Shown: one piece after another, positions 23,046 to 34,733 of the stretch
Position numbering within the stretch: position 1 is the first letter of the stretch
How the letters are laid out: the number at the start of each line of letters is the position of its first letter
Source: Prorocentrum cordatum
Lineage: Eukaryota > Sar > Dinophyceae > Prorocentrales > Prorocentraceae
Direction of reading: 5' to 3'
DNA: 64,000 nucleotides
NCBI GenBank assembly: GCA_963575745.1
Contig: CAUYUJ010008613.1
Coordinates: forward strand, 315,355 to 379,354
The notes under the pieces: model-generated
Told to the model about the DNA's origin: nothing
Database searches by the model: none
What the model saw: only the letters and a program-made list of their open reading frames with translations
Program-made: the position numbers and the translations under genes

Positions 23046-23620
23046 CACATTGCCCAAGCAGCACCCAAAGCGGCCCCGAGAGGGGTCCAAGAGGGGCCCC
23101 ACGGGGGGAATTCGAACCCACATTCCGACACCTTCGCCCCAACACGATCCCGAAGACCGCCAGCAGGCCCCTAAGGACCCCCCCGAGAAGACCCAAGAGG
23201 TTCACAAGAGGCCCCAAGACGGCTCCAAGGGGACCGTCAAGAGGGCACGAATATGCACACATTTCGCTGTGTCTATGCGCGCGGCGCCCCAGATGACCGC
23301 AGAGGCCTCCAGGAGAGCCCCAACATTGCCGAAGAGGATCCAAAACTGCCCAAGAGGGTCCCAAGGTGGCCCAAGCTGCACCCAGGACCGCCCACGGCGG
23401 CCCCAAGACGGCCCAAAGAGGGCCCCAAGAAGGGCATGGGGGTGGGGGGGGATTGCGAATTCACAGTTCCAAGGCACCCGTTTTAAATGATCCCCAAATA
23501 CCACCAGCAGCCTTCCAAGGACCCCCCGAGAGGACCCTAGAGGGCCAAAAGAGGCTCCGAAGAGGCGCCGACAAGCGCCGCAAGAGGCTTCAAACTTGTT
23601 TCCAAGAGGCTGCCCAGAGA
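23046..23620 (+). repeat. CCAAGAGG-type degenerate repeat
   Basis: Irregular repetition of CCCAAGAGGCCCC-like words with a spacing of about 10-12 bp. The same family occurs in this orientation at about 32,635-32,760, 42,240-43,560, 51,270-51,470 and 59,250-59,420, and in the reverse orientation at 40,815-41,250 and 60,260-60,780. All three frames give Arg/Pro/Lys-rich translations without stops, which are not genes. Confidence 0.8.
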
Positions 23621-24195: not shown

Positions 24196-24279
24196 TGATC
24201 CTTTTAACAAGTGTATGCTGCGTACCACGGCGAAGTTGCCGCACTTGATGGTCATCCGTTGCCATCTCGCTCTAGCCTC
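24196..24279 (+). repeat. Split direct repeat A1
   Basis: 84 bp beginning TGATCCTTTTAACAAG and ending CGCTCTAGCCTC. It is repeated at 30,459-30,542 with one difference noticed (T/C at the 17th base). It is the left terminus of the element. Confidence 0.95.
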
Positions 24280-24296
24280 GAGCGAACTCCGCCCGT

Positions 24297-24689
24297 ATGC
24301 TTTCGGCCGCTCGCGCGGCGGCCGATCTGCTGCTGCCAGAGCTGGGTCGCGGGCTGAGCACCGGCGTGGCGCTGTACGCGGCCAACCAGGGGCACGCGCA
24401 GTGCCCTGCGTGCTCGTGTGCGCCGCAGTTCCACTGCCCTGAGCTGCGGTGCGACTGCTCAGGCCTTCAGGGCTCGAGCAGTCACGGGCCCAGCCTCTGG
24501 GCCGTGGCGCTGGCCTGCGCCGCCAGCGGGCTGGTCGGGGCCTCCACCGCCGCGCTGGCCTGCTGGCGCGCTGGCGGCTGCTTCGTGGCGGCCCGTCGTC
24601 CGCAGGTCGGCGGTGGCAGGGAGCCTGACTTCGAGGAGGAGGCCCGAGCTCAGGCGCGCGTGGCGCGCGCCAAGGCGCTGCAGCAGTGA
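24297..24689 (+). CDS. Small Cys-rich single-pass membrane protein, first ORF of the YR retrotransposon
   Basis: The ATG at 24,297 is only 17 bp after the end of A1. The 130-residue product has a Cys cluster (Cys36, 39, 41, 47, 52 and 54), one clear hydrophobic helix (about residues 66-90) and a charged, Glu/Arg/Ala-rich C-terminus that could form a coiled coil. Its TGA (24,687-24,689) shares its last base with the ATG of the next ORF in a TGATG arrangement, which suggests termination-reinitiation. I recognise no homologue. A membrane protein is not a standard component of YR elements; an envelope- or matrix-like role would be speculation. It could also be an upstream regulatory ORF. Confidence 0.7.
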   Translation: MLSAARAAADLLLPELGRGLSTGVALYAANQGHAQCPACSCAPQFHCPELRCDCSGLQGSSSHGPSLWAVALACAASGLVGASTAALACWRAGGCFVAARRPQVGGGREPDFEEEARAQARVARAKALQQ

Positions 24690-25933
24690 TGGCGGCGCCG
24701 GCGCCGCCGGTGCATCCGTCAGTGGCCGCGGCGGGGGTCCAGCCCGGCGACTTCATCGGGGTGCAGTACCACGTGGCGGGCGGGGCCCTGATCCACGAGC
24801 GTGTGGTGGTGCTGGTGCCGCCGGGGCTGCCTGGCGCGGCGTGCATCATCACGCCCGACGCGGACGAGTACGAGGAGCTGTACGTGGGCTCGCCGGACGT
24901 GCTGCGGTGGGACGTCTTCCCTGGCGGCGCGGCGGGAGGCACGATGGCCTGGGCGCCTGGCGCCCGCTACTACAGGTTCCGCAGCCTGCCGACGCCGGCC
25001 ACGCTGCTCACCGCCGCAGCCGCGGCCGCCGGCCGTCTCGGTCTTCCTGCCCCGCCTGGGCCCATCGTGGCCAACGCAGGTGGGCGACCGCTGGCAGCGC
25101 CGGCGGTGGCGGCAGCGGGTGCGCTGCTGCCTGCCGCTGCAGCCCCGGCCGCCGCCCCCGCTGCGGGCGTCGCCGGGCTGGTGGCTGCACTTGGGGGCCC
25201 CGCGGGGGCGCCCGGAGCACTCGTGCCCCCCTTGCCCGGCGGCGCGGCGGCCCCGGCCCCGGCGCCCGCGCCGGCGCCCGCGCCGGCGCTTCCAGGTGCC
25301 GCGGCCCACGCTGCTCCGCCTGGCGCTCAGACGGACGCCCGTGTGCTGCCTGTGGCGTACAACGCCCTCGGCCAGAGGAAGCTCGGCTTCTCCGAGGCGG
25401 TGCTGCGGCTCGTGGAGCATGACTGGCCGGACTGGCCGATGTCGGGGCCGCGGACGACGCTGTGGGTGCGCCTGTTCATGAAGGACAACGGCATGTCCCC
25501 GCTGGGTCGCCACAGCAAGTGGCGTTCGGAGGGGCGCCTGGCGTTGACTGACGCGGGGGTCGCCGAGCACGAGCGCTGCTGTTTCTACCTAGAGCAGATG
25601 GCGTGCTACGACCTGCTCAATGTGCCGGACGTGGCTGCGGCGGAGATGGTCTGCAGGAGCATCCAGGTGCAGGAGGAGAGGTGGCGGGACCGGTTCATTA
25701 CCAATGCCGACGAGTCCCTCGACTCGCACCTGTTCTACGGCACCTCGGCCAACCGGGGCAACGTGTGCGTCCACCCACAGCTGCTGGCCTATGTCAGCGG
25801 TGAGCTTTCGAAGGAGTATGCCGTGGCCAAGGAGAGGCGCAAGGCTCGCGAGGAGCGCCAGAGCGCCAGGGCGCCCAACAACGAGGACAAGAAGGGCGGC
25901 AATGACAAGGACAAGGAGGAAGGCAAGGGGTGA
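24689..25933 (+). CDS. Gag-like protein of the YR retrotransposon
   Basis: The ATG (24,689-24,691) overlaps the preceding stop in TGATG. The 414-residue protein begins with a compact domain of about 110 residues (PGDFIGVQYHVAGG...), continues with a long Ala/Pro/Gly linker (about residues 110-215), then a conserved-looking second domain (FSEAVLRLVEHDWPDW to about residue 350), and ends in a Lys/Glu/Asp-rich tail. Position, size and low-complexity linker match Gag proteins of retroelements, which form the particle holding element RNA. No CCHC zinc knuckle is seen. The assignment rests mainly on position. Confidence 0.65.
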   Translation: MAAPAPPVHPSVAAAGVQPGDFIGVQYHVAGGALIHERVVVLVPPGLPGAACIITPDADEYEELYVGSPDVLRWDVFPGGAAGGTMAWAPGARYYRFRSLPTPATLLTAAAAAAGRLGLPAPPGPIVANAGGRPLAAPAVAAAGALLPAAAAPAAAPAAGVAGLVAALGGPAGAPGALVPPLPGGAAAPAPAPAPAPAPALPGAAAHAAPPGAQTDARVLPVAYNALGQRKLGFSEAVLRLVEHDWPDWPMSGPRTTLWVRLFMKDNGMSPLGRHSKWRSEGRLALTDAGVAEHERCCFYLEQMACYDLLNVPDVAAAEMVCRSIQVQEERWRDRFITNADESLDSHLFYGTSANRGNVCVHPQLLAYVSGELSKEYAVAKERRKAREERQSARAPNNEDKKGGNDKDKEEGKG

Positions 25934-26560
25934 CGTTGAGCGGGCGGCGGGACTTGGGGCCCCCCGCCGCCCCAAAGCTCGAGCACCAGGCCCTTTTTCG
26001 CGGCCCCCGTGCCGCCACCGATGATCTACGCCATCGGGATCTTTTTCCGCTTCCTCACGCGGCTCGACGGACTGAGCGCGTGCCCGGCCGCCGCCCCTGC
26101 AGGGCCGTGCGCCAGCGGCTCCGCCGCTCCGACGTGCTGCTGCAGTGGGCCGACCAGGGCATTGACGCGCTGAACTGCCTGTATGGCCACGCTGGTTCAC
26201 CTCCTTCGGCGCCCGCGAACCTGGGGCAGCAGACGAGCCTGAACTTTCTGGAGGACTGCTACCTAGGCATGGGCGCGATGCCGAGCGAGCCAGGTTTTTG
26301 TGAAGAAGCCCTCCGCGAGCTTCTCAGTGGCTCCACCGTCTACTCTGAGGATGGTGGCGCACGGGTCCCGTACTCTAAGGAGCTGGTCTCCTGGCCTGAG
26401 GTGGGTTCCAGCCCCGTCGATCTTGTGGGCTGCCTCACTCAGGATGATGCTGATTGGGCACGGGATTGGCGACATAACTTGCTCAAGACGCCCGACGAGG
26501 CGCTGCTCGGGGCCCGACAAGCTTGTCTCGCGGACCTTTCGTTGACCCTCGGTTGGCGCG
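25934..26560 (+). CDS. N-terminal part of the Pol region in a different frame
   Basis: A coding-like frame (about 26,106-26,560: LLQWADQGIDALNCLYG and later EEALRELLSG, PDEALLGARQACLADL) leads directly into the RT domain, but the RT is read in another frame from about 26,530 (PFVDPRLARDPVLYG). The offset is -1 or +2. No obvious slippery heptamer was seen, so an indel is the simplest cause; programmed frameshifting is possible. There is no convincing ATG at the left end; the frame is open back to the Gag stop codon. Confidence 0.5.
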
Positions 26561-28195
26561 AGATCCAGTTTTGTATGGTGATTTTGTTCGGCGGCTTCAT
26601 CAATGTGGAATGTTGCGCTTCAAGGTGGCCTCCACTGCCAAGCACATGATTGGTGTATTTGTTGCGAGGAAGAAGTCCGGCAAGCTTCGCATAGTGTTCG
26701 ACACGAGGTATGCCGACGCCTACTTCCACCCGGCGCCCGCGACGCGGCTGCCCACGGCGGCCGCGGTGTCTTCAGTGGAGTCGGGCGGCTTGCCCCTGTG
26801 CGTGGCGGCCGGCGACCTCGACAATGCCTTCTACCGTCTCAGGCCCATGCCGGGCTTAGAGGACTACTTCGCGCTGCCCCCGCTCTCCTCGTCCCTCGCG
26901 GGCATCGCGGAGTTGGAGGGGGCGAGCATTCCGGCAGGGTCCAGCTTGGCCCCCTGCCTTACCATCCTGCCCATGGGGTGGTCGTGGGCGATGCACTTCT
27001 GCCAGGCCGTGACCATGCGCGCCATCTCTCTGGCGGGCTTCGCGGACTCGCAGATTGTGGAGGACGGTCGTACCAGCGTGGCCCTGCCCGACCGCTCAGA
27101 CACGGCGGCGGCGGGCTACGTGGACAACTTCTACGTCTTCGGCCACGACGCCTCGCTGGTCACGCAGCGCCGGGACGACGTGTCCGCCGTCTTGCGCGGG
27201 TGGGGCTTGACCGTCCACGAGGAGACGGATGCCTCCCCCGACGCCGCGCTGGTGGGCCTGGAGCTCAGGCAGGGCCGCTGGCTGTCCATCAAGCGCCGCA
27301 ACCTGTGGCGGCTCCGTGCGGCGCTGGATACCGGGCTACGCCGGGGCTGCTGCTCCAGCAAGATGCTTGAGGTACTGGTGGGCCACGTCACATGGGCCTG
27401 CTTGATCCGCCGTGAGCTGCTGTGCGTGCTGAGCTCCGTGTACCCGTATATGGCGGCCGGCCTGCCGACGACCTCGCGGCTGTGGCCCTCCGTGCGCCAG
27501 GAGCTGTGGCTCGTCCGCTCGCTGCTCCCGCTCCTCCAGAAGGACTTGAGCAGCCCGTGGCACGACGTGGTCGGAGTGAGCGACGCCTCCGAGTTCGGAG
27601 TCGGCGTCGCCGTGCGGCCGGCGCGGCCTGACGCTGCGGCGCAGCACGGCCGCCAGTGCGAGAGGTGGCGTTACCGAGTGCACGGTGCCGAGAAGGCCCG
27701 CGAGAGAGCCCTCCGCCCTCAGCCTCTACCATCCTCCGCATCCGCCGCAGCTTCGCTGCCTGCCGGACTGCAAGGGCTGGACGTCTTGGGGCTGGAATCC
27801 TTCATCCGGGTGCACCCGCGGGAGTTCATTGAGGTGCCCAAGGAGTTCTTCGACGGGGCTCGCTGGGCTCCTGTTATCGCATCAAGGGTCGTCGTGCCCG
27901 ACAACATTCTAGCTCTGGAGGGGGGCGCGTGTGTCTTGGGCATCAAGCACATCATGAGGTCCAGGGCCGCTTTCGGGAAGCACATACTTCTGTTCGTCGA
28001 CAACATGCCGTTGGCCCTGGGTTGTTGTAAGGGAAGGGCCGCCTCCATTCATCTTCGTCGTTCTCTTCGTAAACTGTGTTGCTTGGCACTGTGTTCAAAT
28101 TGTACTATTCACATACGCTGGACGTGTAGCGAGTTCAACTCTGCCGATGCTCTCTCTCGCGGGCGTTTAGGCTGGTTCACAGGGCCTTGCCGACG
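26523..28195 (+). CDS. Reverse transcriptase and RNase H of the YR retrotransposon
   Basis: The RT shows the fingers word KLRIVFDTRYA (about 26,683), motif A GDLDNAF (about 26,811), the ILPMGWSWAMHFCQ stretch (about 26,967), and motif C as YVDN (27,117-27,128) in place of the usual YxDD. RNase H follows, with VSDASEFG (Asp at 27,582), LFVDN (Asp at 27,999) and NSADALSRG (Asp at 28,146), the last typical of retroelement RNase H. The protein would copy element RNA into DNA and degrade the RNA strand. The same frame stays open to 30,227, so RT-RNase H and the methyltransferase-like domain may be one polypeptide. The second catalytic Asp of motif C is Asn. Confidence 0.88.
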
Positions 28196-28275
28196 CGCTG
28201 CTGCCGCCCAGCCTGGCTGCTCTCGTGCGGGGCCCTCCGTGGCTGACGGGCCGACACCTGCAGGAGCCGGGCTCG

Positions 28276-29406
28276 ATGGCGGGTGCCTCGGCCTCTCGCC
28301 GCCAGGCGGATCGCCACCGCAGAGCTGCGGCGGCTCGCCAGGTGGCGTCCGAGCGGGGGCCCTCGGGCGGCCTCTCGGTGCTGGAGCGCGCGGCGGTCAG
28401 GCCGGGCACGGAGCGCCTGTACCAGGTGTACCTCCGGGCCTTCCTGCAGTTCTGCCTGGTCATGGCCATCGACTGGACGAGCGAGGCCGAGATGGACGTC
28501 GCCCTGGTCACGTACCTGAATTCGATGTACTTCGAGGGCCGCGCCCCGAACGAGGGCTCCGCGCTGCTGGCGTCGCTGGCGCACTACACGCCGGCGCTGT
28601 ACAAGAGGACGGCGCAGGCCTTGCCAAGGGCGACGCGTTGTCTGGCGGGCTGGCGCCGGCGCGTCCCGACCAGGATGCGCCTGCCGCTGCCTCGCCGGGC
28701 CGCCTTCGCCATCGCCGGGACGCTGGCTGCCTGGGGCCACCCGCGCATGGGGCTCTTCGTGATGCTGTCGTTCGCGGCGTATCTCCGCCCGCAGGAGGCC
28801 ATCCGCCTGGCCGGGCGCCACCTCGTGCCGCCGGTGGCCCACCTGGGACAGGCCCCCACTCCGTGGGGGCTGCTGCTGCACGACTCCGACTTGCAGCTGC
28901 CCGGGAAGACCAACCTCTGGGACGAGAGCGTGCTGCTGGACCAGGCGCCGTGGCTCGAGCCAGCCCTGGAGGCGCTGAGGACTGTCGCGGGCGACGGCCC
29001 CCTGTGGGACTTCCTGCCTACGTCGATTGCTCGGCTCTTCGAGGATGCGTGCCACGCCCTGGGCCTGATGCACTTGCAGCCGCATCTGTATTCCCTCCGT
29101 CACGGGGGCGCCAGCGAGGACCTGCTGTCTGGCGCCAGGACGCCGGAGCAGGTCATGCGGCGGGGTCGCTGGGCCACAGTTGCCTCGCTCCGCCGCTACG
29201 GCAAGGAGACTCGCCTCCTCCGGGAGGCCGCCAAGGTGGACCCCGACGTGCTGCTGTTCGGCGAGATCGTGGAGCGCAACTTCCTGGATGTGCTGCGGGG
29301 CGGCCCCTTGCTGCCGCCGGCGTGGGCCGAGCTGCCTGCCAGCGTTGGCCCCCGCCTGCGGGGAGGGCCCGGGGCCCCCGCCGCCGCGCGGCGCCGCCGG
29401 CGCTGA
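28276..29406 (+). CDS. Tyrosine recombinase (integrase) of the YR retrotransposon
   Basis: Starting at the ATG at 28,276 the product is 376 residues; the frame is open upstream to about 28,180. The N-terminal half is a helical core-binding-type domain. Catalytic signatures are Arg171 in YLRPQEAIRL, Arg275-His276 in LYSLRHGGAS and Tyr308 in GRWATVASLRRYGK, the order expected for the tyrosine recombinase active site. The His usually found three before the second Arg is replaced by Tyr, as I recall for DIRS-type enzymes. It lies in the +1 frame relative to RT, wholly inside the other long open frame. It would integrate a circular DNA copy by site-specific recombination. Confidence 0.88.
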   Translation: MAGASASRRQADRHRRAAAARQVASERGPSGGLSVLERAAVRPGTERLYQVYLRAFLQFCLVMAIDWTSEAEMDVALVTYLNSMYFEGRAPNEGSALLASLAHYTPALYKRTAQALPRATRCLAGWRRRVPTRMRLPLPRRAAFAIAGTLAAWGHPRMGLFVMLSFAAYLRPQEAIRLAGRHLVPPVAHLGQAPTPWGLLLHDSDLQLPGKTNLWDESVLLDQAPWLEPALEALRTVAGDGPLWDFLPTSIARLFEDACHALGLMHLQPHLYSLRHGGASEDLLSGARTPEQVMRRGRWATVASLRRYGKETRLLREAAKVDPDVLLFGEIVERNFLDVLRGGPLLPPAWAELPASVGPRLRGGPGAPAAARRRRR

Positions 29407-29469
29407 CGGCGTCGCCTCAGGCCGCGCGGCTTCACCTGCAGCGGCGATGCCGCCGAGGCCGCGCTGGCG

Positions 29470-30227
29470 CCAGCAAGTGGAGGAGCTGCCTGTTTCTGGA
29501 GCTGTTCGCAGGGCAGGGTCGCATCTCCCAGCGCATCCGCGACCTTGGCTACGGCTGCCTGGACCTGGACCTCGTCCACGGGGCCTGTGAGGATCACCTC
29601 CGCACCACGTTCGAGTCGGTTGTGCGCGGGTGGCTTCTGAGCAAAGCCAGTGTAGGTTTGTGGCTGGGCACTCCCTGTACGTCCTGGTCGCAGGCTCTCA
29701 GAGACCCTCTGCGCTCCAGTCGCTTCCCCATGGGGAAACCAGGTCTGTCAGGACCTCGGCTGGACCGCCTCCGCGTAGGCAATCGCTCGTTCCACTTGTC
29801 TTGCCGGCTCATCCGGCTCTGCATCCAGATTGGCTGCCCTGTCTTTTTGGAGAACCCTCGCGGGTCGCTGCTCTGGCACGCCCCCGAGATGGTGAAGCTT
29901 CTTTCAGACTCATCGTGCGCCATTCACAAGATGGACATGTGCCGATTTGGCACACCCTTTAAGAAGCCGACTACAGTGGCCTGCTGGAATGCAGGCGTCT
30001 TCCCCAGCTTATGTAAATCGTGCTCTGGCAAGGGAGGCATTTGCTCGTCGACTGGCCTGCCCCACCTCATCCTCCAAGGCCGAGACAAAGGTGCGCCTGC
30101 CCGCCGCACCGAGCTGGCCGCGGCTTACTCGCCTCAGTTCGCCCGCTCGGCCGCCCTTGCCATGACGCACTCTGCCAACGCTCTCAGAGAGAAATGGATG
30201 ATGGATGCTGCCTTCAAAATCACGTAG
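29470..30227 (+). CDS. Cytosine-methyltransferase-like domain at the end of the Pol frame
   Basis: This is in the same frame as RT-RNase H, after the region where the recombinase frame overlaps. The order of motifs follows class I methyltransferases of the C5-cytosine kind: LELFAGQG (motif I, S-adenosylmethionine site, about 29,496) followed by LDLDLVHG; GTPCTSWSQ (motif IV-like, PC with Thr instead of Gln, about 29,667); FLENPRG (motif VI-like, ENP for ENV, about 29,844). It ends at the TAG at 30,225-30,227. DIRS elements carry a methyltransferase at this place, usually described as Dam-like, and cytosine methyltransferases are known in dinoflagellate retrotransposons. Activity is uncertain because the motifs deviate. 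Confidence 0.65.
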
Positions 30228-30273
30228 TCTCTTTTCGGTAGTTTAGGTTATTTCACGTGCGTAGTTCGTTTTC

Positions 30274-30289
30274 GGCCACTGGTGTGGCC
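30274..30289. other. Short hairpin after the last ORF
   Basis: GGCCAC-TGGT-GTGGCC forms a perfect 6-bp stem with a 4-base loop, 47 bp after the last stop codon of the retrotransposon and before B1. Function unknown. Confidence 0.5.
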
Positions 30290-30310
30290 AGGACTGCTCT
30301 GCGGGATTCG

Positions 30311-30459
30311 GGTGGCTCTCATCAGTGTCTTCGAGGGTGTGCGGCTATCGCCGGGATCAGCTGTCTCATGTATAGCCTCCGGTTTGCCGTGGCCTCGCCC
30401 TCCCGCGCTCGTCCCCATAGTAAATACATCGTCCTGGCATCTGGGGAGTGGAAGTAGCT
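30311..30459 (+). repeat. Split direct repeat B1
   Basis: 149 bp from GGTGGCTCTCATCAG to GAAGTAGCT, repeated at 30,587-30,735 with no differences noticed. Its last T is the first T of A2. Confidence 0.95.
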
Positions 30460-30542
30460 GATCCTTTTAACAAGCGTATGCTGCGTACCACGGCGAAGTT
30501 GCCGCACTTGATGGTCATCCGTTGCCATCTCGCTCTAGCCTC
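30459..30542 (+). repeat. Split direct repeat A2
   Basis: 84-bp copy of the left terminus, directly abutting B1. The B1/A2 joint is the expected recombination region of split-direct-repeat elements. Confidence 0.95.
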
Positions 30543-30586
30543 CCCTCCCGCTCCTCCCTTGCTCTCTCTCGTTTGCACGGATTTCA

Positions 30587-30735
30587 GGTGGCTCTCATCA
30601 GTGTCTTCGAGGGTGTGCGGCTATCGCCGGGATCAGCTGTCTCATGTATAGCCTCCGGTTTGCCGTGGCCTCGCCCTCCCGCGCTCGTCCCCATAGTAAA
30701 TACATCGTCCTGGCATCTGGGGAGTGGAAGTAGCT
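30587..30735 (+). repeat. Split direct repeat B2 (right terminus)
   Basis: 149-bp copy of B1, separated from A2 by 44 bp. Simple ATGTATAC sequence begins immediately after it at 30,736. Confidence 0.95.
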
Positions 30736-31060: not shown

Positions 31061-31487
31061 GATTATGTGGCACGCGGGCCCGTGGTTCTGGCCTTGGGAT
31101 CTCCCCGCGCCATGGGGTGTCACCGCCCTCCGAACAGTTCCGAACGGCTCGGCGAGAGATTCTGGGCAGCACAGCAGGCTAGAGACCAACGCGCTGATTG
31201 GCCCAAGGGCGCCCGACAACGCCCAAGGTAGACCCAAGACGACCCAAGAGGCTCCCCAGAGGCCCCAATAATAGTTCCAAGAGGATTCCCGCGGGGGCTC
31301 CCCGAAGCAAGACTCGTTTTTCCAAACCATCTTGTTGTATTGGGTCTTCGTTTTGAAGAGGCAGCGCCCCGCGTTGTCCTCCTTCCTTCCTCCTCCCCCT
31401 CCTGCCCCCTCCCATCATCATCATGATCGTCATCATTAGTATCATCGTCGTCATCGCCACCCATGTCGGCCTCCTTTCTCTTTCGGC
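31061..31487. other. Spacer with a short CCAAGAGG-type stretch
   Basis: A few CCAAGAGG-type units lie at about 31,220-31,280 and a short ATC/GTC repeat at 31,425-31,460. No gene. Confidence 0.5.
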
Positions 31488-32480
31488 ACACCCCTCCCAC
31501 GCTTCGTGGCCCCATAGGGAGCTCCACCGAAGGTCCCAGTGGGACCGCCCGGATGCGTCCGCCAGACCCAGTACAGCGTTTGGTGGCCCCATATGAAAGC
31601 CCATCGAATGTCCCAGTGGGACCGCCCGCATGCGTCCGCCACACCCAGTACAGCGCTTCGTGGTCCCATAGAGAGCTCCAGTGAAGGTCCCAGTGGCACC
31701 GCCCGCATGCGTTCGCCACACCCAGTACAGCGGTTCGTGGTCCCAAAGGGAGCTTCAGAGAAGGTCCCAGTGGGACCGCCCGCATGCGTCCGCCGCACCC
31801 AGTGCAGCGTTTCATGGTCCCCTATGGAGCTCCGCCGAAGATTTCATTTGGAGTGCCCGCATGCGTCCGCCACACCCAGTACAGCGCTTCGTGACCCCAT
31901 GGGGGGCGCCACCGAAGGTCCCACTGGGACCGCCCGCGTGCGTCCGCCATACCCAGTACAGCTTTTGGTGGCCGCACAAGGAGCTCCACAAAAGGTCACA
32001 GGGTCATGCGTCCGCCACACCCAGTACAGCGCTTCCTGGGCCCATAGGGGGCTCCACCGACGGTCCCAGTGGGACCGCCCGCGTGCGCCCGCCACAACCA
32101 GTACAGCGCTTCGTGGCCCCATGGGGGGCTCCGCCGACGGCCCCAGTGGGACCGCCCGATTGCGTCCGCCACACCCAGTACGGCGCTTCGTGCCCCCATT
32201 GGGAGCTTCACCGAAGGCCCCAGTCGGACCGCTGCGTCCCCCCCGCCCAGTACATCGCTTCGTGGCCCCATGGGGAGCTCCTGCCATGGTCCCAGTGGGA
32301 CCGCCCGCATGCGCCCCCCCCCACCCAGTACAGCGTCTCGTTTGGGAGCTCCACCGAAGGCTTCAGTAGCACCGCCCTCATGCGTCCGCCACAACCCACT
32401 ACAGCGCGTCGTGGCCCCACAGACAGCTCCACCGAAGGTCCCAGTGGGATAACCCGCAACCCCCCACCCATTACGGCACG
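31488..32480 (+). repeat. 77-bp satellite array (about 13 units)
   Basis: The anchor GTCCCAGTGG recurs at 31,533, 31,610, 31,687, 31,764, then about 31,841 and 31,918, a steady 77-bp period. Each unit reads roughly CGTGGCCCCATAGG, GAGCTCCACCGAAGG, GTCCCAGTGGGACCGCCC, GCATGCGTCCGCC, CCCAGTACAGCGCTT. Because 77 is not a multiple of three, every unit changes the frame, and open frames on both strands (about 270 codons forward, 230-330 reverse) are artefacts. A related 88-bp form occurs at 54-57 kb. Confidence 0.93.
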
Positions 32481-32634: not shown

Positions 32635-32765
32635 CAGGAGTCCCCCGAAACCCACCCAAGACGGCCAAGAGGCCCCCCAAGAGGGCCCAAAGATGGCCCC
32701 ACAGGGCGCCAAGAAGGCCCAAGAGTCGCCCATGACGGCCAACAAGGACCAAAGACGCCCTCCTG
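32635..32765 (+). repeat. CCAAGAGG-type degenerate repeat
   Basis: Short block of CCCAAGAC/CCAAGAGG words in the same orientation as 23,046-23,620. Confidence 0.7.
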
Positions 32766-32839: not shown

Positions 32840-33060
32840 TGGCGCCATGCGGGCACTCCCAATGTGGGGTGTGCCGAAACGCGCGCGTTGACGCCATGCG
32901 GACCCTGCCACTGGGGCCTTCCGTGGAGCTCCTCATGGGGCCACGGAACATTTGAGGGGTGTGCCAGAATGGGCACGGGGGCGCCATGCGGGCCTTCTTA
33001 TTGGTCGGTTAGGTTCCTTATGGGGTCACGAAATGTGTGCAGGAGTGTGCCGAAATTTTT
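32840..33060 (-). repeat. Inverted, diverged units of the 77/88-bp satellite
   Basis: On the minus strand it carries the CGTGGCCCCAT, GAGCTCCACGGAAGG, AGTGGCAGGGTCCGCATG word order of the satellite. Two to three diverged units are visible. Confidence 0.65.
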
Positions 33061-33534: not shown

Positions 33535-33941
33535 AGTCGCCATGCTTTCCGCTATGGGGGGGGGGGGGCTACGCGAGCACAGCGGGTCTCACGGCCTCAC
33601 TGCGCGTCGGGGCGCGGTGGGGCGCGTGCCGCGGGGTGGGGGCGGCTGCTGCCTGTCTTGATTCGCTCGGCCGCGAGACGTGATGCAGATGAGGTTCTTC
33701 GCCGCGGTGGTGCTGACGGCTGGGCTCTACAGTCCGCAGTCGCTGCCAGCGTGGAGGGCGGAGCTTTTGATATCGGTGCTGCAGGGCACCCAGCAGCGCG
33801 CCGACCCCGACATCGCCGTCACTTCCATCCGCTCGTCCAGGCACGTGGTCTTCCGCTGCAGGTGGAGGAGGGAGAGGCTCTCCAACAAGATCGCGGGACA
33901 GAGCATCTTTCTAGGGCGCAAGGTGCATACGTAAGTCATCA

Positions 33942-34733
33942 GTGCGCCAATTGTACATTCCCCCAGCTTCGACGGGAGAGACTGGCCGAGTGAGCGGCCT
34001 CAGGGTGGCCACGGCGACGACACCGTTGACGATTTTCGGCGTGTGCATGTCTCCTTCGGGCAGCTACGCGGAGAGACGCGGGGCCATGCAGAATCTATTC
34101 AAGTGGCTCAGTGACGTTTGGTCGGCGGCTGGCAATCGATGTGCGATTTTGGCGGCAAGGGATTTCAACGAACAGCAAGGGTACGAGGAGAAAGACGAGG
34201 CAACAGGGCGGCTTGGCAAACACCGGGCTTTTTCTCACGTGGCCACTCTGAGAATGTGGACAAAAAACAACGGTTTGACGGCCCGGCTGCGAACACCCTT
34301 TTTTCGAGTGCCAGCCAGCTGCTACGGTGAGTTCCCTTGCAGCTGGATCGACCATGTCCTCGCCAGCACGTCATCATCAGAGTTCGTGCGCCAGCCGCGG
34401 ATGATAACAGGCTTGATACGGGTGATGCCACCTCTCCTGTCCTCAGACGTTCACGACAACTGTCCTATGGAGTTTCAACTTGCCAGTCGCGCAGGGAACG
34501 AAGCCATCGAATGCGGTAGTATCAAGAGCGACCGCGACAGCCTCATGGCGTTCGTGACGAAAGGATACAGGAGGCACGAGTACTGCGTGATTGTCGAGTC
34601 CAGGCTGCAAGTGGTTGCATCAGAACGGGCAGCAACTGAGGGCGACCCAGCACCTGAGGCACGGCACCAGATGCTTGGGAGCGCCGCGCGCGACCGCGCG
34701 CGAAGCGGTCCACGCATGCTTTTCGATGGCTAA
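33942..34733 (+). pseudogene. LINE-type apurinic endonuclease domain (degenerate)
   Basis: The translated frame has the layout of the endonuclease-exonuclease-phosphatase domain of non-LTR retrotransposons: LTIFGVCMSPSGSY near the start, AARDFNEQQG (a GDFN-like metal-binding motif with Gly replaced by Arg), SWIDHVLAS (IDHI-like) and DVHDNCPMEF (degraded SDH motif). Such domains nick target DNA for target-primed reverse transcription. There is no ATG start, no reverse transcriptase follows in frame, and the key motifs deviate, so this is a dead fragment. The part after about 34,560 is Arg/Ala-rich and may no longer be aligned with the family. Confidence 0.65.

Follow-up and report, generated by a model that had tools for sequence, protein, structure and literature searches.

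A layout of split direct repeats combined with a methyltransferase-bearing pol is the published description of PAT retrotransposons, as given in the available extracts of PMC4157794 and PMC2685390, and dinoflagellate elements with the order A-coding-B-A-B and a methyltransferase (MT) in pol have also been published (PMC5890265, in extract). Here, we analyze a 64,000-nt stretch of the dinoflagellate Prorocentrum cordatum (assembly GCA_963575745.1, contig CAUYUJ010008613.1, positions 315,355 to 379,354 of the forward strand; hereafter the window), in which positions 24196..30735 of the + strand hold an element with these features and a tyrosine recombinase (YR). An initial annotation of the window had presented PAT/Ngaro-type ends together with a DIRS-type gene layout as an informative combination. 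The layout stands, but the weight put on the combination is overstated, since such ends with an MT-bearing pol are in print, dinoflagellates included. "DIRS-type" is moreover the wrong kind for the MT: the DIRS MTs described in the available part of PMC3783388 are Dam-like adenine enzymes, whereas the one found here is C5-like. To that annotation, our analysis adds a conserved open reading frame (ORF) ahead of gag, termed ORF0, a frameshift in pol, a YVDN motif in the reverse transcriptase (RT), and the class of the MT.

The element very probably represents a P. cordatum family of split-direct-repeat, PAT-like YR retrotransposons of the Toc3 pattern. It is assigned there because it combines split repeats, an MT, a forward YR, and a Gag lacking a zinc finger (scheme of PMC4157794, as far as the available text goes). 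The placement follows this structural scheme; the tree that we made consists of 17 rows of the element's own relatives. The split direct repeats are seen in the window and 15 further copies, pol encodes RT, RNase H, and MT, and the YR has its own ORF; the Gag zinc finger of Pat1 is absent, as in the Toc3 pattern, and so are the inverted terminal repeats with an internal complementary region that mark DIRS1-like elements. The layout of the ends is thus already known, and what is unusual is the YVDN RT, the short C5-like MT, and the conserved ORF0.

Repeat architecture, copies, and insertion sites

The ends of the element are formed by two repeat pairs.

24196..24279, + strand: A1 repeat, left end of the element; 1/84 bases different from A2; same left end in the 14 copies compared
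30311..30459, + strand: B1 repeat, abutting A2 in a B-A arrangement resembling a circle junction (repeat comparison)
30459..30542, + strand: A2 repeat (repeat comparison)
30587..30735, + strand: B2 repeat, closing the element on the right; followed by a TATG/TA microsatellite

The coordinates and lengths given in the initial annotation are exact to the base. Compared within the window, with a few flanking bases included, the 84-bp A pair has 1 mismatch (BLAST E 1.9e-38) and the 149-bp B pair has 0 (E 1.4e-75). A single T (30459) is common to the end of B1 and the start of A2, and T is also found at 24196 and 30735. Neither a further A or B match inside the window (at E 0.01) nor an inverted repeat longer than 9 bp linking the two element ends was found.

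To place the element among its copies, its own assembly (4.128 Gb, 21,875 contigs) was searched with both repeats, scoring the best 40 of 102 candidates for A and the best 40 of 106 for B, so that copy number is a lower bound; matches were obtained for 40/40 scored candidates with each query. The A places comprise 14 pairs spaced 6.0–6.8 kb (28 of the 40 places, the window's pair among them) and 12 single places. We fetched the 13 other pairs, a choice that favours full copies since both A repeats had to be listed, and read 7 of the 12 single places (L001–L003 and L022–L025); the remaining 5 adjoin a B match, their bodies being unread. Of 17 loci whose length allows a judgement, 16 have the order A-gag-RT-YR-MT-B-A-B, with differing flanks, namely the window, all 13 further A-pair loci, and two (L022 and L025) of the 4 further single-A loci. 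Of the other single-A loci, L023 is a truncated copy that ends after the YR without MT and right end, though the stretch fetched was long enough, and L024, cut by the edge of its stretch, shows the end of the YR, MT, B, A, and B. The four-part order A1...B1-A2-B2 that had been annotated in the window is therefore seen again in 15 further copies, as had been expected of full copies. It had also been proposed that repeats at loci without the coding body would speak against a single element; in all 25 loci (L001–L025), which were chosen by A matches, A or B adjoins element coding, and the B places on contigs C19988, C17718, C20288, and C4834 are unread.

The statistics that follow (alignment, motifs, AT content, and selection) refer to 14 copies, that is, the window and the 13 paired loci, with L022–L025 left out. 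Their pairwise identity is 90.1–98.9% (median 94.9), and their identity to the window copy is 91.9–98.5%. Summed over all 14, A1 and A2 differ at 18/1176 positions and B1 and B2 at 36/2085; because its own repeats differ at just 1/233, the window copy ranks with the youngest of those compared, which fits the recent movement that the initial annotation had read from the near-identical repeats. The ratio of nonsynonymous to synonymous polymorphism (pN/pS) is 0.11 for ORF0 (95% interval 0.07–0.19), 0.13 for Gag, 0.15 for the MT, 0.30 for RT-RNase H, and 0.35 for the YR, as opposed to 1.17, 1.33, and 2.95 in wrong frames, the last being the +1 frame of ORF0; these values are pooled over all copy pairs, so that related copies count repeatedly, and were bootstrapped over codons, not copies. 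ORF0, Gag, and the MT are under the strongest purifying selection.

Relatives at the protein level were sought among the best 7996 candidates of a pol-relative search and the best 8000 of an MT-relative search. The named pol relatives P0008 and P0009, both from P. cordatum, are 79–97% identical to the window element by region; for P0008 the values are 97% in the pol N-terminus, 84% in the RT, with gaps, and 95% in the YR. Other P. cordatum proteins (P0015, P0021, and P0025), some of which also have YR and MT, are 30–44% identical in the RT, which points to the coexistence of several divergent families of this kind in the P. cordatum genome. The GC fraction of the window is 0.56–0.71 per 2 kb; the published P. 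cordatum genome has 59.7% GC in a 4.15-Gb assembly (PMC11453091, PMC10666404, in the extracts available).

The family prefers insertion into TA-rich repeats. The AT fraction in the 20 bp on each side of the ends averages 0.79 (0.50–1.00) versus 0.38 at a distance of 400–900 bp, A1 is preceded by A in 13/14 copies, and the right flank opens with AT in 12/14. T is the first element base in 13/14 copies, stands at the B1-A2 joint in 14/14, and is the last base of B2 in 13/14. In the window, a TATG/TA microsatellite runs from the element end onward, and the two flanks joined make one such repeat. No target duplication was seen in the flanks by eye, no scripted test having been made. The preference for AT-rich flanks may be a selection effect of the assembly.

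Several other features surround the element. Degenerate 11-bp repeats of CCCAAGA type flank it on both sides (23349–23436 and 32655–32725). To its right lies a 77-bp tandem array (31500–32449; 12.6 copies, 76% matches), and 31462–31555 is 74% complementary to 32895–32988. An ORF at 33915–34730 has a weak, below-cut-off match to the endonuclease/exonuclease/phosphatase family PF03372 (E 0.0004) and is possibly the remnant of a long interspersed nuclear element (LINE).

ORF0, Gag, Pol, and the recombinase

All the coding regions that had been annotated between the repeats, Gag-like, RT-RNase H, YR, and MT, are present, together with ORF0.

24297..24689, + strand: ORF0, 130 residues, Cys-rich, with one hydrophobic stretch (hydropathy); its stop overlaps the Gag start (TGATG)
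24689..25933, + strand: Gag-like ORF, 414 residues, without a CCHC zinc knuckle (tblastn to P0021)
26026..26526, + strand: pol N-terminal region in frame 1, in the window copy out of register with the RT frame; 97% identical to P0008 residues 1–137 over 26116–26526
26478..30227, + strand: long pol ORF in frame 3, with RT, RNase H, a linker over the YR, and MT (relatives found)
26535..27620, + strand: RT, approximate limits; Asp codon of motif A at 26814, YVDN of motif C at 27117–27128
27575..28193, + strand: RNase H, limits approximate; D/E/D/D codons 27582, 27918, 27999, and 28146
28276..29406, + strand: YR ORF, in a frame other than that of pol; R 28786, K 28906, Y/H 29089, R 29098, W 29170, Tyr 29197
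29466..30227, + strand: C5-cytosine methyltransferase-like domain at the C-terminus of pol; Cys 29676, Glu 29850 (predicted fold)

ORF0 is open, starts with ATG, and overlaps the Gag start through TGATG in 14/14 copies. Seven of its nine cysteines are kept in 13 or 14 of the 14 copies, the other two being found in one copy only; the protein may have a membrane or zinc-binding role. The Gag-like protein is 27% identical to P0021 (tblastn E 5e-18), and its frame is kept in 10/14 copies. No Cys/His pattern was found in Gag and no CCHC in pol.

In 11/14 copies, the frame of the pol N-terminus is one behind that of Gag, and in 11/14 it runs on into that of the RT. The window copy belongs to the three in which it does not, its pol N-terminus and RT being read in separate frames. 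The element had been described as complete, which is right for its layout but not for its coding; because its pol is frameshifted, the window copy, young as it is, is probably non-autonomous. There is no in-frame ATG in the pol N-terminal frame before 26269, and Pol expression therefore probably needs a frameshift or reinitiation.

Motif C of the RT reads YVDN in the window instead of YxDD. In an alignment of 18 RT-RNase H proteins, 17 of which cover the motif, 16 have Asn at the second position, the exception being the distant P0024 (IDD), and 14/17 keep the first Asp; among the genomic copies the counts are 14/14 for Asn and 11/14 for Asp. YVDN is reported for the RT of nematode BEL elements in the available part of PMC554778, which leaves it to be determined whether activity persists, and is also in print in PMC9094657 (in extract); a search of the open-access literature for YVDN with reverse transcriptase yielded these two papers only. 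The four RNase H residues D/E/D/D are all present in 14/14 genomic copies; in the wider protein alignment, of which several rows are gene models with gaps, E is found in 12/15 and the second D in 8/13. Among the aligned RT relatives, 7/12 match PF00078 (best E 1.1e-5), which the window's RT does not. Indeed, neither Pfam nor NCBIfam recognized RT, YR, or MT in the window's own sequences, weak matches being confined to relatives; an NCBIfam match of the window sequences to narJ (E 0.034) was dismissed as chance. The pol ORF has no match among PDB sequences, no relative turned up in scans of viral contigs, whether the query was the RT protein or the alignment of either RT or MT, and Rfam returned 0 matches. 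A spliced-leader remnant was also considered: two one-mismatch matches to a 12-base pattern were found, 5/100 shuffles reach 2, and the candidate was not used.

The YR ORF sits between RNase H and the MT. Its first Arg and Lys are conserved in 12/12 copies with the stretch, and its second Arg, Trp, and Tyr in 14/14, the H/Y position being Tyr in 13/14. The relatives P0015 and P0025 match PF00589 weakly, below the cut-off (E 0.019 and 0.23). Where the two frames share the same bases, pN/pS is low in the YR frame and not in the pol frame (0.35 vs 1.33). Three of the 16 full-layout copies (L015, L022, and L025) have one common deletion junction in the YR (query positions 491/713) and different flanks, and therefore a lineage without intact recombinase has multiplied, presumably with help in trans; the YR deletion of L017 differs slightly (492/731).

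A short methyltransferase of predicted C5 type

The predicted fold and the sequence motifs mark the MT as a C5-cytosine methyltransferase, and a short one. The model, built from a 38-sequence alignment, has a predicted local distance difference test score (pLDDT) of 93.4 and a predicted template modelling score (pTM) of 0.90. Its fold neighbours are C5 MTases in 50/50 PDB rows among the matches listed, and the same holds for 45/45 Foldseek matches at E ≤ 0.001. The catalytic Cys of motif IV is found in 33/34 and the Glu of motif VI in 34/34 covering rows of the 38 in the family alignment (A6), which comprises the window MT, P0026, and 36 of 45 search matches, with P0029, P0063–P0065, and P0069–P0073 excluded for being short, distant, or long. 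The Dam-like family PF05869 matches 0/38 members at E 0.1. The window MT itself matches no Pfam model up to E 10, and the C5 family PF00145 matches 5/38 members (best E 0.002), with P0068 at 18.1 bits against a cut-off of 22 and P0030 without a match; the C5 assignment is thus one of fold and catalytic Cys/Glu, with no PF00145 match above the cut-off.

A first model from 5 sequences (pLDDT 53.4), which gave generic Rossmann-type fold matches, was replaced by the 38-sequence model. A match of an earlier alignment (A3) to Tako8, a designed propeller, among PDB sequences (E 7.5e-8) was taken for a composition artefact and is gone with A6. A candidate second MT in P0031 (54685–56142) was discarded, having no Pfam match and, with the proteins then in hand, no tblastn match at E 1e-5. 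In the relative P0026, Tyr replaces the catalytic Cys. Four MT fragments listed for the green alga Pyramimonas sp. in EukProt (P0061, P0062, P0066, and P0067) are 83–96% identical to the window's MT in A6, possibly through contamination or transfer.

The presence of the MT bears on whether the element could instead be Ngaro- or VIPER-like, a reading that we consider very improbable. The order A1...B1-A2-B2 is common to Ngaro, VIPER, and PAT (PMC6681497, in extract), and 1/12 RT relatives weakly matches the hepadnaviral polymerase C-terminus PF00336 (E 0.074), a kinship of the type reported for VIPER RNase H. Ngaro and VIPER are, however, described without an MT in the available text of PMC4157794, whereas the MT is present here in the window and 15 further full-layout copies, conserved, and under selection.

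A somewhat unlikely reading, though one worth weighing, places the element in the SymbioDIRS-Dnmt3 group already in print and takes its MT for a diverged Dnmt3; little beyond a new host record would then be left. The layout of that group is indeed found here, with A-coding-B-A-B, the MT and RT in one pol ORF in the window, and a separate YR ORF. The canonical motif VI of C5 MTases is ENV, whereas that of the window MT is ENP. The best structural Z scores are tied for HhaI (11.8), DNMT1 (11.2), and DNMT3 (10.9) and thus give no pointer to Dnmt3 specifically. The SymbioDIRS study, according to its available text, searched by Pfam domains such as PF00145 (PMC5890265), to which, as described above, the window MT and most of its relatives are invisible.

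That the domain acts on RNA (tRNA or genomic RNA) like DNMT2, and not on DNA, appears distinctly doubtful. DNMT2 is the best of 9 weak matches of the sequence profile among solved structures (E 0.066) and is also among the Foldseek matches, and the small size of the MT (253 residues vs 327 in HhaI) leaves little room for a target-recognition domain. The DNA MTases HaeIII and HhaI match as well (E 0.15 and 0.98), however, and HhaI gives the best structural row. According to the available part of PMC5890265, CG is methylated de novo by the DIRS DNMT, while the LINE DNMT did not do so in yeast.

Proposed mechanism and comparison with known elements

For transposition, the steps can be taken over from the PAT/Ngaro model in the literature. 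Gag would package a transcript running from A1 to B2, reverse transcription would follow with B1-A2 serving as the template that restores the ends, and the cDNA would be closed to a circle with a B-A junction. Acting through a shared core of very small length (T), the YR would then insert this circle into TA-rich repeats and leave no target duplication. Pol may be translated by frameshifting or reinitiation downstream of Gag, the C5 MTase at the end of its polyprotein may methylate the new cDNA or an RNA-DNA intermediate, and ORF0, read just ahead of Gag, could act as a membrane or zinc-binding helper. The window copy, with its frameshifted pol, would be a recent insertion.

A number of points weigh against this interpretation. 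Neither activity nor a transcript of the window copy, a circle, or an empty allele was observed. The shared core is only one base. Gly replaces the first Asp of YVDN (codon 27123) in 3/14 genomic copies as well as in P0008, P0010, and P0016. The adenine-MTase family PF02086 (D12) matches 3/38 MT relatives with a best E of 0.00099, slightly better than PF00145. Finally, the route by which the MT is made is debatable. Because pol has no in-frame ATG between 28005 and 29730, the MT is most simply part of an RT-RNase H-linker-MT polyprotein, and the pol frame is open over the YR in just 0.7–1.1% of synonymous shuffles (3.5% for the conserved domain alone). We favour this reading with some doubt, because the pol frame over the YR lacks amino-acid constraint, the overlapping linker is open in 8/14 copies, and RT and MT share one frame in 6/14, the window counted.

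On balance, we lean slightly towards a separate marine-algal YR lineage, in which a Dam-type MT would have been replaced by a minimal C5 MTase that retains for target recognition no more than a small conserved module of Cys/His type, possibly binding zinc, and in which this change is accompanied by a YVDN RT, a Cys-rich membrane-like protein before Gag, and targeting to TA-rich microsatellites. We found no prior account of ORF0, of YVDN in YR elements, or of this MT family in the open-access literature, subscription papers being outside the scope and no search having been aimed at ORF0. A small C5-type MTase under stronger selection than RT or YR makes the role of MTases in transposition testable with one short domain; the occurrence of YVDN in a family other than the nematode BEL elements is relevant to whether an RT stays active when Asn takes the place of the second Asp (a question raised in the available part of PMC554778); and assays of circles and insertions are simple to design, given the defined ends, the B-A junction, and the preference for AT-rich targets.

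Compared with known systems, the element shares with DIRS1-like elements a YR that overlaps an RT/RNase H/MT pol, but has no inverted terminal repeats, and its MT is not Dam (PF05869). With the nematode BEL/Pao elements Cer7–Cer12 and Atlas virus it shares YVDN in place of YxDD in the RT (extracts of PMC554778 and PMC9094657), but those are long terminal repeat elements with an integrase of another kind. SymbioDIRS-Dnmt3 from Symbiodinium, as described in the available text of PMC5890265, likewise has a dinoflagellate host, the A-coding-B-A-B layout, a C5-type MTase with RT in pol, and a separate YR ORF; the MT of the P. cordatum element, by contrast, is unrecognised by PF00145 and not assignable to Dnmt3, and that text contains no mention of an ORF0 or YVDN for SymbioDIRS-Dnmt3. 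With the PAT-like elements of the Toc3 pattern, finally, it has in common A1...B1-A2-B2, an RT/RNase H/MT pol, a forward YR, and a Gag without zinc finger (PMC4157794, in extract), and it differs from them in an MT that is C5-type by fold and motifs rather than Dam-like, in the YVDN of motif C, and in the presence of ORF0.

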